Of a DNA stretch of 25,195 nucleotides, positions 14,021 to 18,311 are shown one piece after another. The first letter of the stretch is position 1. The number at the start of each line of letters is the position of its first letter. The notes under the pieces were generated by a model, which saw nothing but the letters and a program-made list of their open reading frames with translations, had not been told where the DNA came from and did not search any database. The translations under genes were made by a program, and so were the position numbers. Source of the DNA: a virus; the IMG/VR virus record IMGVR_UViG_3300029319_000468, positions 1-25,195 of that record. One strand, written 5' to 3'.

Positions 14021-14864
14021 TTTTTAGTTCCACATACTGCACAAGTTTTGGGAACTTGGCCTTTGATTTTGCTTGCGGTGCCTCAATTAGATTGGGCCAA
14101 CAAGCCTTTCTGAAATCACAGAAAGTACAGTTCTTGTTTAGAACTTTGTTGCCAGTAGGCTTTTTGTAGAAGTATTCATCTTCTGGTTCAAAGCACCGTT
14201 CAAACTCGTTTGCCTCTACCTTCTTTGCGGTTTCTTCAATGTGGGCTACCTCTTTGTCAATGTCAATGCCCGTGGCAGGAATATATTTAAACTTGCCATT
14301 GGCCTTGTTGACTACCCACCAACCCCCAGCACGTTTGCCTGTTGCTTTAGCATAGCCAGCAAGCTGTCCGATATAGCCAAAGCCATCACCACTAGCGAGG
14401 GAATCGTAGGAGTCAAACTTATTACGATAAGACCAGTCAGACGCAGACTTAACATCATCCACAGCCTCATCAATAACAAGGTCATACGTTCCGTTGATTT
14501 CCGTACCGTCTGACAGAGTGAGTGTAACACTATCTGAATCTCCATATTCAACTCCTGCTTCTGTAAGTAGTCCCTTGAAGACAGCTTCAACGATGTCTCC
14601 AAGCATCATGTTCATTACAAAGTTACCAGCTTTAGGTTGCGCTGCCTCTGGCTTGTTCTTTTCAAACCATAGCTGGCAGGTTGGCCTACCAACATTAGAC
14701 ATGCGCAACTTAAAGTCTCTAGGCTCCCTCTCGCCAAACTGACGAGCAAGTGCATCCATGATGTCCTTTCCAATTTGTTGGATTGTTTCAGGTGACATGG
14801 TGGATTTGCCTTTAGCAGCATCGTCCATGTACTTATGCAACGCCAGTTCAGCAGAGTGATTCAT
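14013..14864 (-). CDS. Cas4/RecB-like PD-(D/E)xK exonuclease with putative Fe-S cluster, 283 aa
   Basis: The nuclease core is visible: GDIVEAV (about 89-95, with E93), D128 in GTYDLVID, D137-V-K139 in the DxK motif, and Q167-x3-Y171 in YIGQLAGY. These are the motifs of the RecB/Cas4 nuclease family. One Cys before the core (C63) and C246-x2-C249-x5-C255 after it match the four Cys that hold a 4Fe-4S cluster in Cas4 and AddB-type nucleases. A 5'-3' or bidirectional ssDNA exonuclease role in recombination or DNA processing, analogous in position to T7 gp6, is inferred. There is no cas gene or CRISPR nearby, so it is a replication gene rather than part of an immune system. Confidence 0.88.
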   Translation of the reverse strand: MNHSAELALHKYMDDAAKGKSTMSPETIQQIGKDIMDALARQFGEREPRDFKLRMSNVGRPTCQLWFEKNKPEAAQPKAGNFVMNMMLGDIVEAVFKGLLTEAGVEYGDSDSVTLTLSDGTEINGTYDLVIDEAVDDVKSASDWSYRNKFDSYDSLASGDGFGYIGQLAGYAKATGKRAGGWWVVNKANGKFKYIPATGIDIDKEVAHIEETAKKVEANEFERCFEPEDEYFYKKPTGNKVLNKNCTFCDFRKACWPNLIEAPQAKSKAKFPKLVQYVELKSA

Positions 14865-15799
14865 TATGCTACCTCACTTTCAATTTCAATGAAGTCTTCT
14901 ACAAGTTCAGCTTCGTCTTCGGGTACGGCTTTGGCACTCTCTTCTTGGCGCTTCATAGCCTTATCATCCCACTCCTTGCAGATGTAGTCATTGAAGTTCT
15001 TTACCCATTCAAGGAAGTTACCAAGAAGTTCTTCGTCCTCTGGTTTTACTTCATGCACAACTGACATATCAGCTTTACACTTTGGAGTGAAGTAGCTGCT
15101 ACCATTTGGTAGGTTATTCTTGATGTTCTCAGAGAACACAATGTTGTGCATGAGCGGAAGACGTTCCTGACGAGCAAAGACACCAAACTCATCACCAAGT
15201 GACTTGAAGGCATCCTTATTGTCAATCTCCCAAATAAATGGGGTGGTCACTTCATCCAGTTCATTACCATTTGCATCTACAGGATTGTCGAGAGTCACCA
15301 CTCCAAACACTACACGTACACGTTTGATCTGCCGGATCAAGTCCTGCATGTCAGGTGGCAGTGCTTTAAAGTCTTCAATGTACCCAGATGGCTTACCACA
15401 GTTGAACCGACCAGTATTATCTTTCAAGTCAATGTTCAGGCTGTCTGCCATAATCGTGCGGTGGAAGCTGCCCTTTGGCTCGTTTGGCTTTGGGTTTTTG
15501 TTTGCAATATATCTGCGATACATAAACCTCTGCATAAACGGGCGCATGGTTACAGTTTTGCTATACACAAACTTAGACGAATCACCTTCAATGATCTCAA
15601 GGCGGAACATACCACCTTCAATCGTCTCTACATTTGTGAGGCGACCATTTACCTCTGCCTGACCCATAACTGGCTGATGCCAGATGCGCAGACGATTTAG
15701 GGTATTCGTTTTCTTGCTAGTCTTGCCGTCATCAGCGATGCCCGTTAGCTTCGCCAAAGCTGCAAAGTTGCCAGCATTAACATTTATTAGTTCACTCAT
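14864..15799 (-). CDS. Putative ssDNA-binding protein, 311 aa
   Basis: The chain has a mixed alpha/beta body (residues 1-260) and a strongly acidic C-terminal tail (from about 285, including EDEAELVEDFIEIESE). An acidic tail is a hallmark of phage and bacterial ssDNA-binding proteins such as T7 gp2.5 and E. coli SSB. Its place directly between DNA polymerase and the Cas4-like exonuclease fits such a role. I see no OB-fold motif that is decisive by eye, so the call rests on tail and context. GGAG lies about ten bases upstream of the ATG. The stop overlaps the next start as TAATG. Confidence 0.55.
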   Translation of the reverse strand: MSELINVNAGNFAALAKLTGIADDGKTSKKTNTLNRLRIWHQPVMGQAEVNGRLTNVETIEGGMFRLEIIEGDSSKFVYSKTVTMRPFMQRFMYRRYIANKNPKPNEPKGSFHRTIMADSLNIDLKDNTGRFNCGKPSGYIEDFKALPPDMQDLIRQIKRVRVVFGVVTLDNPVDANGNELDEVTTPFIWEIDNKDAFKSLGDEFGVFARQERLPLMHNIVFSENIKNNLPNGSSYFTPKCKADMSVVHEVKPEDEELLGNFLEWVKNFNDYICKEWDDKAMKRQEESAKAVPEDEAELVEDFIEIESEVA

Positions 15800-15841: not shown

Positions 15842-17884
15842 TCATGCCACATCTTTCGTGTCAAGCCAGTTAGGACCGATTTTTGCTTCTAAAAGCATCG
15901 GAACATTTAACTTGACAGCAAAAGCATTGTTAATCAAGTCGGTAAGATTATCATTCATGTTCTTCACCAGAGAAATAATTTTTTCTTCTTCCTCTGGGTG
16001 AATGTCAATCACCACTGAATCATGCACTGTGTTAACAATACAACTCTTCATAGTTGATAATCTCTTTTCCATCTCAAGTAACACAACAGGAACAATGTCT
16101 GCTGTGGCAAATCCCTGCACGGGATAATTCTTTATCTGTGTAAAGTACGACACAGTTCCGTTCATCTTACGCACAACATTGGGAAATGAATACTGACGAC
16201 CAGATGGCGTAGTAATCATCTTTGTTGTCAAAGCCTCTTTAGCCAATCGGGAATGCCAAGCTGCGATGCCTTTGTACTTCGTATTGAAGTGTGTGTAATA
16301 CTCCGCTTCCGCTGCAGTTCTCCCATATCCCGTTGCACCATAAAGCGGAGCAAACGTATGCGCCTTCGCAGTCTGACGATCCGTAGGTTGACCAGCATCG
16401 GTAATAACCTTAGCGGTATATGAGTGTACATCAAACCCAGTAGATACTTCATCAATAGCAACTCCATCTTGTGATAGGAAAGCAGCGGCACGAAACTCCA
16501 ACTGCGCAAAGTCAGCTTCCATAATCTTGCCACCTTCCCACCGTGATACGAACACTTTTTTTACAGGAAAAGTGCCGCCACGTGGCATGTTCTGCATGTT
16601 TGGATCAGCACCAGAGAAGCGACCAGTAGCCGTGCGATGCTGCAGGAGACGGACATGCAGTTTACCGTCTGCCTTCCTGTAGGTATTTATGCCATCAACG
16701 AATGATGACAGGTAAGTATCTAGCGCACTCAAACGCTTTACCTTATTTAAGAAGCTGATTGCATCGTGCATATTGTGCTGACGTGCAAATCCTTCAAGTA
16801 TCTCAAGGTGTGTCTTGCTAGTTGTGAAACCATTAGCACTGACCCACTTGGCATCCGGTGCAGTAAAGCGTAGTCCAGCAACCCTTTCAGACTCAACAAA
16901 CACGTACCCGTTCCCATCACAAACCTTACATTTGTTTGGCCTTGCATACTTACTTCCATCTTTCCGGGTACGATACACCTTACCTGAACCGTCACAGGTG
17001 TGACACTTTTGTGGTTCTTTCTTGTAGACGATCTCGCTGTTCTCTTTCATCACAGTCTTGTATAACTCCTTTGACATATATGGATCAAAGTTGTTTTGCC
17101 ACATGGCTTTGTCAATAGGCTTGCGACTATAGATTACTTGAGACAATTGCTCTGGGCTATTGAGATTGACGTGACGATGCCCCATCAACTTATGTACCAT
17201 AGTCTCCAACTCACTTGTCAGTGTCTGCTTCTCGTTCTCAAACTCGACACGTACATCTTCCAGTACACTTTCGTTTACCTTGAACCCACGCTGATAAATT
17301 CTAGCCAGCACCACAGCGACTTGATTAGACAGGACAACAGTGTCCATAAGACCTGCGTACTCTTTGCTCATTAACTTTGCATACTGCCTGTCAGACAACT
17401 CCTGTGTCGCATGAAGGTCAGCAACTAGATACTCAGTAAGTTCGTTGTATGGTATGTCTCTGGTGCTTATGCCCTGTTTGAAATATTCTTTCAGTGTATC
17501 CTGCTTCTGCCAACTCAGTTCATAGCGTTGCGCACATGCGTCAAGAGACAGTGGTTCTTTCTGCCCACGCTGCATGACATACTCTGCCAGCATCGTGTCA
17601 AACACAGGGCCGTCATACTTGAAACCTGACTCCCACAGCCATACAAGATCGTGCGGGGCATTGTGGCATATCAAGATCGTAGCTTCATCCAGCATCATTT
17701 GCACACGATCAAAGTAGTCATCTTGATTGGGACGGTCAGCGTGATCAAATGGGAATGTCAGACACTGACCTTGGTCTGTCAGCATACCAACCATTACAAG
17801 TGAATTGGTAGGCTCAAACGGATCAAGATGCATCTTACCATCCCTATGTGTCACCGTGTTTTCTACATCAAGTGTTAGTTTCAT
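15842..17884 (-). CDS. Family A DNA polymerase with 3'-5' exonuclease and DnaJ-type zinc insert, 680 aa
   Basis: This is the replicative polymerase. The proofreading exonuclease is intact: D6-x-E8 (Exo I), N75-x3-D79 (Exo II), Y152-x3-D156 (Exo III). The polymerase motifs follow: A with D458 in EADFAQLEFR, B with K507, F511 and Y515 in KAHTFAPLYG, C with H621-D622-S623. Between the two domains, residues 294-326 contain two CxxCxGxG knuckles (C294/C297 and C319/C322), like one zinc unit of DnaJ, where other family A polymerases have thumb. This arrangement is the known signature of HMO-2011-type phages. F511 is equivalent to Phe762 of E. coli Pol I. There is AGGAG ahead of the ATG and a 17-base overlap with the endonuclease VII-like gene. 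Confidence 0.96.
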   Translation of the reverse strand: MKLTLDVENTVTHRDGKMHLDPFEPTNSLVMVGMLTDQGQCLTFPFDHADRPNQDDYFDRVQMMLDEATILICHNAPHDLVWLWESGFKYDGPVFDTMLAEYVMQRGQKEPLSLDACAQRYELSWQKQDTLKEYFKQGISTRDIPYNELTEYLVADLHATQELSDRQYAKLMSKEYAGLMDTVVLSNQVAVVLARIYQRGFKVNESVLEDVRVEFENEKQTLTSELETMVHKLMGHRHVNLNSPEQLSQVIYSRKPIDKAMWQNNFDPYMSKELYKTVMKENSEIVYKKEPQKCHTCDGSGKVYRTRKDGSKYARPNKCKVCDGNGYVFVESERVAGLRFTAPDAKWVSANGFTTSKTHLEILEGFARQHNMHDAISFLNKVKRLSALDTYLSSFVDGINTYRKADGKLHVRLLQHRTATGRFSGADPNMQNMPRGGTFPVKKVFVSRWEGGKIMEADFAQLEFRAAAFLSQDGVAIDEVSTGFDVHSYTAKVITDAGQPTDRQTAKAHTFAPLYGATGYGRTAAEAEYYTHFNTKYKGIAAWHSRLAKEALTTKMITTPSGRQYSFPNVVRKMNGTVSYFTQIKNYPVQGFATADIVPVVLLEMEKRLSTMKSCIVNTVHDSVVIDIHPEEEEKIISLVKNMNDNLTDLINNAFAVKLNVPMLLEAKIGPNWLDTKDVA
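16990..17005. repeat. Palindrome copy inside the DNA polymerase gene
   Basis: On the + strand this reads CGTCACAGGTGTGACA, one mismatch from the consensus TGTCACA-NN-TGTGACA. On the coding strand it encodes C-H-T-C-D of the first zinc knuckle. It shares 20 identical bases (16991-17010) with the copy in the primase gene, including the flanking CTTTT. Because the codons for CHxCD produce this palindrome naturally, a DNA-level role for this copy is uncertain. Confidence 0.6.
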
Positions 17885-18311
17885 TTATCTTCTCCTTGTG
17901 TTCTTTTAAGTATTGTATTGCTCGTTGCAATACTTCTTCACTATCGTCAAACCCACCCAATGATCTATTACATTTGTGGCATAGCCATCCCCTAAATGTG
18001 TCAGTATCGTGGCAATGATCTATTACCCATGCACCATTTTTCATATTGCCTTTACCAGCAACAGAATCCTCACCCTGCAAACATATTGGACATTTATGAT
18101 TTTTATCCGGCATTCCATACTGTTGTCTTAGTGCATTGCGAACCTTTCCTAGTTCTGTATTACACTTTTTACACTCTGGACGCAAGTAGTTTGCACCAGA
18201 GTGCCAGCTAAAAGCTGAGAAAGGTAAATGCTGCTTACATTTATTGCATGTCTTACCGTCACCTTCAACAAGATCATAGTCCTCAAGGTCAAACAGAAAT
18301 TGTTGTATCAT
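17868..18311 (-). CDS. Endonuclease VII-like HNH (beta-beta-alpha metal) nuclease, 147 aa
   Basis: The core matches the recombination endonuclease VII family: CPIC (about residue 74-77), W-V-I-D-H-C-H-D with the catalytic Asp-His, then T-x-R-G-W-L-C-H-K-C-N-R-S-L-G. The two CxxC pairs hold the structural zinc, and DHCHDT is the metal/catalytic site. In addition, residues about 22-50 contain CNKC and CKKC, a second zinc ribbon that is a common N-terminal addition. The family cuts branched DNA, or can act as a free-standing homing-type nuclease. It sits between helicase and polymerase, overlapping each by a few bases, so it looks integrated in the operon rather than a recent insertion. Confidence 0.9.
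   Translation of the reverse strand: MIQQFLFDLEDYDLVEGDGKTCNKCKQHLPFSAFSWHSGANYLRPECKKCNTELGKVRNALRQQYGMPDKNHKCPICLQGEDSVAGKGNMKNGAWVIDHCHDTDTFRGWLCHKCNRSLGGFDDSEEVLQRAIQYLKEHKEKINETNT

Follow-up and report, generated by a model that had tools for sequence, protein, structure and literature searches.

A conserved Cys4 insert with a basic hairpin in the H1-H2 thumb loop of an HMO-2011-type phage DNA polymerase

Phages of the HMO-2011 type abound in the ocean (PMC9038755). Their family-A DNA polymerases, which are known from sequence only, carry a partial DnaJ domain comprised of two CXXCXGXG motifs. Between them, Zhang et al. (2019, PMC6918029) and Qin et al. (2022, PMC9038755) describe this domain from roseophages, from a pelagiphage, and from 207 metagenome genomes, and neither report gives it a function, in agreement with the initial annotation of the locus studied here, which took the insert to be known from HMO-2011-type phages and its role to be unestablished. 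The GenBank entry of the HMO-2011 polymerase already lists the DnaJ central domain (PF00684) beside the exonuclease and polymerase domains. Because Qin et al. (PMC9038755) required both motifs for group membership, the loss of a motif could not be tested in their survey. Among the papers searched, none mentions HMO-2011 together with DNA polymerase and thumb. The insert is real and already published as an observation, and it has gone unexplained since it was first annotated. What is new here is a conservation test without a presupposed outcome, the placement of the insert in the H1-H2 loop of the thumb, and the basic hairpin that it carries.

The window (the whole stretch of DNA analyzed, 25,195 bases of a virus record from an ocean phage) encodes a 680-aa family-A DNA polymerase at 15842..17884 on the minus strand, assigned to the HMO-2011 type by its translation, its Pfam matches, and its 67.5% identity to the polymerase of phage HMO-2011. 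Two Pfam domains score above their cut-offs: a 3'-5' exonuclease (PF01612, E 5e-8) at residues 54-165 (17390..17725, minus strand) and DNA_pol_A (PF00476, E 4e-53) at residues 351-674 (15863..16834, minus strand). The insert lies between these domains, as had been proposed, and an exonuclease and a polymerase domain with two CXXCXGXG motifs between them is the published definition of the group (PMC9038755). In a tree of 29 polymerases, the window polymerase joins its closest subgroup, to which CRP-345 belongs, with support of 100/100, and the whole HMO group including it has support of 87/88. The polymerase is a new member of the published HMO-2011-type architecture, and it has the same insert position and Cys tetrad as the polymerases of HMO-2011, CRP-1, CRP-2, CRP-3, CRP-345, CRP-603, CRP-738, and HTVC033P.

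Several features of the gene neighborhood were also observed. An Endonuclease VII-like gene (17868-18311, minus strand) sits with the helicase on one side and the polymerase on the other, overlapping both, whereas in HMO-2011 the helicase directly abuts the polymerase; this gene is possibly a mobile endonuclease. Directly after the polymerase is a gene for a 311-aa protein (14864-15799, minus strand), which adjoins the polymerase in many HMO-type relatives and whose C-terminal tail is acidic; in one relative (L340) the protein ends in EEVPF, resembling a single-strand binding protein (SSB). Elsewhere, family-A polymerases are split into two adjacent annotated open reading frames in Alcaligenes phage QDWS535 (L089, 183-2098) and in Vibrio phage ICP2_2013_A_Haiti (L092, 153-2246).

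The two motifs, which the initial annotation had placed within residues 294-326, are both exact CxxCxGxG matches: knuckle 1, CHTCDGSG, spans residues 294-301 (16982..17005, minus strand), and knuckle 2, CKVCDGNG, spans residues 319-326 (16907..16930, minus strand). The separation of 21 residues given for them holds as the distance from Cys297 to Cys319, but not as the gap between the motifs, which is 17 residues. Such motifs are rarely expected by chance, and only 39 of 200,000 shuffles of the polymerase sequence contained at least one CxxCxGxG. The DnaJ central domain has four CXXCXGXG repeats and two zinc sites. The insert shares its repeats with this domain (PF00684) but has two of the four, and it scores below the Pfam cut-off of 32.7 bits both in the whole polymerase (25.0 bits, residues 289-329) and when the insert is searched alone (29.2 bits). 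No further match, and hence no J domain, was found in the Pfam scan of the polymerase. A profile of the insert matched the zinc domain of Escherichia coli DnaJ (1exk, E 2.8e-6) and anti-TRAP (E 0.004) in the PDB, both of which are zinc domains, and the insert alone recovered HMO-type polymerases and weak DnaJ-like matches from phage genomes. With the other two repeats and the J domain missing, the label "DnaJ" is unfit for the insert, and "half-DnaJ Cys4 finger" describes it better.

Relatives were gathered from IMG/VR and GTDB genomes by peptide patterns lying outside the knuckles, together with published isolates, giving 358 full-length polymerases of about 33-98% identity, a sample in which very distant forms are under-represented since the best 80 loci per scan were taken. 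The initial annotation held that free loss of the cysteines by relatives would refute its reading of the insert; there were no losses among the relatives listed, as Cys294, Cys297, Cys319, and Cys322 were all present in 358/358 (359/359 with the window polymerase). With the window polymerase counted, the tetrad is kept in 129/129 clusters at 90% identity and 23/23 at 70%, and across the relatives every one of its cysteines is encoded by both TGT and TGC. Among 25 partial or ambiguous sequences, 17 have the whole tetrad, and the remaining eight lie on contigs that break off in or close to the insert or stop short of it. Other positions are less constrained: Gly301 is replaced in 7/359, and Gly324, the middle glycine of the second motif, is retained in 227/359 (63%) and is otherwise Ala, Thr, Lys, or Ser. 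Many relatives, including CRP-345 and CRP-603, thus have CxxCxxxG as their second motif where the window polymerase has the strict form, and a strict requirement for two CXXCXGXG would drop more than one third of the first 328 relatives, those two among them. The distance from first Cys to first Cys is 25, 37, or 38 residues. Given an invariant tetrad with a variable Gly324 and a variable hairpin length, the constraint is on four cysteines around a hairpin of variable length rather than on the DnaJ consensus, and a half-DnaJ Cys4 finger defined by the tetrad of two CxxC knuckles has no exception in the 359 sequences. Separately, the same two HMO-type phage contigs (L336/L337 and L340/L341) were binned in metagenome-assembled genomes of two phyla (Flavobacteriales TMED123 and Neomarinimicrobiota MED589), and one or both of these bins must therefore include contaminating phage DNA.

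The AlphaFold2 (AF2) model of the polymerase has a mean pLDDT of 92.2, with blocks of the insert at 86-93; around the four cysteines the model is confident, with block values of 86-90. Its order of elements is a 30-residue helix (205-234), a helix at 244-252, the insert, and helices at 357-369 and 373-402. From the AF2 secondary structure and the alignment, the thumb helix at residues 244-252, within NLNSPEQL (17129..17155, minus strand), corresponds to H1 of Klenow (NLSSTKQL), and that at residues 357-369 (16778..16816, minus strand) to H2 (STSEEVLEEL), where the helix names follow standard Pol I usage. The insert therefore occupies the H1-H2 thumb loop, at about residues 253-353 in the alignment (16826..17128, minus strand), consistent with its earlier assignment to the thumb. 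This loop is ∼100 residues here, in comparison with 15 in Klenow and 22 in StenR_269 and a related locus (L399). Because global alignment to Klenow and T7 with hhalign placed the loop region wrongly, and MAFFT put the NPSS helix of T7 after the gap, H1 was assigned by its motif. The additional thumb segment of T7 and SIO1 precedes the H1 motif (FNPSSRDHI and FNLGSPAQV, respectively), and the residues of the T7 thioredoxin-binding domain named in PMC5984650 run from K268 to E330, all before N335. The insert follows NLNSPEQL, downstream of H1, and so is not at the T7 site; the suggested equivalence with the thioredoxin-binding loop is not supported. In fold, the whole model most resembles DNA-bound Bacillus Pol I, and T7 polymerase is absent from its best 50 fold matches.

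Between the knuckles, residues 302-318 (16931..16981, minus strand) form a hairpin that in a charge scan is more basic than any other part of the polymerase, with the most basic 17-residue windows starting at 302-304. The polymerase overall is near neutral and its exonuclease region is acidic, while the family mean net charge of the hairpin is +5.85 over about 19 residues. Lys or Arg occurs at position 305 in 351/359 and at position 307 in 358/359 of the sequences listed. In four CRP-738-like relatives (L227, L086, L211, and L218), the hairpin is 12-13 residues longer and more basic still (e.g., KQVTKIKLGKKYRV).

We consider it probable, at about 0.6, that the insert is a one-zinc, half-DnaJ Cys4 module whose basic hairpin grips the product duplex from the tip of the thumb. 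The module would form part of the H1-H2 loop at the thumb tip, its two CxxC knuckles would pin the ends of the strongly basic hairpin, and the hairpin would lie along the DNA backbone where the duplex emerges from the active site, giving a firmer hold on DNA and perhaps a longer run length. It would be a within-chain analog of the T7 thumb loop with its thioredoxin, but on the other side of H1. Zinc binding by the insert is very likely, given that the tetrad is invariant while Gly324 varies and that the profile resembles DnaJ and anti-TRAP. Contact with DNA is likely, as suggested by the basic hairpin and its conserved Lys/Arg positions, by the Bacillus Pol I-DNA fold, by the two-knuckle finger of lambda Q, and by analogy with Taq polymerase, whose H1H2 loop touches the distal part of the primer-template duplex (PMC4132270). 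In this loop of Taq, the substitution E507K brings the Kd on primed DNA down from 102 nM to 1.1 nM (∼90-fold tighter) with processivity unchanged (PMC4132270), so an effect on processivity does not follow from stronger binding, and for the insert such an effect is plausible. Of the three roles that the initial annotation had suggested, binding DNA, a host processivity factor, or a chaperone client, the first is the best supported. Against it, StenR_269 and L399, the closest relatives with a short H1-H2 loop, do without the insert, and a basic patch would suit an acidic protein partner as well.

This last point leads to a second explanation, in which the insert is a docking site and the hairpin binds an acidic replication partner instead of DNA, such as an acidic-tailed phage SSB, a DnaB-like helicase, or a host factor. 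There is precedent in T7, whose SSB reaches the polymerase via the thioredoxin-binding domain and the C-terminal tail of the SSB (PMC7699545), and the downstream gene at 14864-15799, with its acidic C-terminal tail, stays beside the polymerase in relatives. The AF2 model of this neighbor is good (pLDDT 88.5) and has a beta-rich core, yet none of its PDB matches is significant (best E 0.049, not an SSB; RB69/T4 gp32 weak, E 0.14-0.34) and it matches no Pfam or PHROG family at E ≤ 0.001; its identification as a gp2.5-like SSB was accordingly rejected, and it is retained as a candidate single-strand binding protein. No partner of the insert is known, and the place of the loop on the duplex favors DNA, so that we regard docking as unlikely, though it is the main rival. 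It is improbable that the knuckle is a mere structural staple, stabilizing the enlarged thumb with no specific contact of its own: while the hairpin varies in length and the tetrad never does, as a staple would predict, this accounts neither for the charge of the hairpin, unmatched elsewhere in the protein across the family, nor for the Lys or Arg at positions 305 and 307.

Two further explanations concern the nature of the motif itself. Four conserved cysteines in CxxC pairs could act as a redox switch or form disulfides rather than hold zinc, and a figure legend of Qin et al. (PMC9038755) lists glutaredoxin (GRX) among the annotated genes of HMO-2011-type phages, but the solved structures most closely related to the motif pair are zinc domains, which makes this very improbable. 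Least credible is a chaperone role, with a DnaJ-like domain binding clients or recruiting host DnaK. The profile does resemble the DnaJ central domain, and lambda replication employs DnaJ (as cited in PMC9038755); set against this, the insert has just one half of the DnaJ zinc domain, the Pfam scan found no J domain, and the DnaJ glycine at position 324 is replaced in 37% of the relatives listed, and the client role suggested for the insert is not upheld. A DNA-gripping Cys4 module remains the preferred explanation, and the duplex contact made by this loop in Taq, together with a constant tetrad and basic hairpin, offers one testable hypothesis in place of a vague "DnaJ domain" label.

The tree of 29 polymerases places the HMO group beside the insert-free StenR_269 and L399 with support of 95/95, with the LKA1-like Autographiviridae polymerases branching outside both. 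A scan with the StenR_269 polymerase recovered only L399 as an insert-free relative among the matches listed. The LKA1-like polymerases (L402-L407 and L091) have H1-H2 inserts of their own, of 88-142 residues, with no CxxC and with a recurring GKN/GKK-x-G turn; homology between these and the HMO insert was considered and rejected, as the signal was not above that of shuffled columns. The H1-H2 site may have been filled on two occasions, or it may have held an old insert that the StenR_269 line lost and that was rewritten; the long branches preclude a choice between these histories. We tentatively suggest, at somewhat less than even odds, that the H1-H2 loop of phage family-A polymerases may serve DNA-holding modules as a second insertion site, distinct from the thioredoxin slot of T7 and filled at least twice (by the zinc-stapled basic hairpin in the HMO group and by Cys-free inserts in the LKA1-like group), which would provide a clamp that needs no host subunit. 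In LKA1, the gene directly after the polymerase with the H1-H2 insert (gp29.1; L403, 2421-2478) is annotated as a "DNA Polymerase-binding protein" and is a lead on binding partners of H1-H2 inserts. A self-contained DNA-holding module on a small family-A polymerase would be of interest for the study and engineering of polymerases.

Among known systems, the zinc finger of the lambda Q protein has a similar pair of motifs: this phage protein also has two CxxCxGxG (CRDCHGTG at 118 and CGRCKGVG at 144) with a basic stretch between them, and a first-Cys spacing of 26 versus 25 in the window polymerase. The host protein is different, and common ancestry would rest on PHROG 6060 (Q-like antiterminators), which matches 40/40 inserts with a best E of 1.6e-6, a score of a kind that short Cys motifs inflate; lambda Q chains in the PDB match the insert profile only at E 1.3-3. 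The lambda Q finger has been proposed to participate in DNA recognition (PMC9371919). Plant organellar polymerases have lysine-rich family-A thumb inserts that were modeled on duplex DNA and whose roles have been tested; no zinc motif is mentioned for these, and the roles are in lesion bypass, lyase activity, and end joining (PMC7699545). The LKA1-like inserts share the place of the HMO insert but have neither its CxxC knuckles nor detectable sequence homology to it. The thioredoxin-binding domain of T7 is likewise inserted at the thumb tip of a family-A polymerase from a phage, and its basic residues face the DNA (PMC5984650); it differs from the insert described here in that it is upstream of H1, has no Cys tetrad, and needs thioredoxin.
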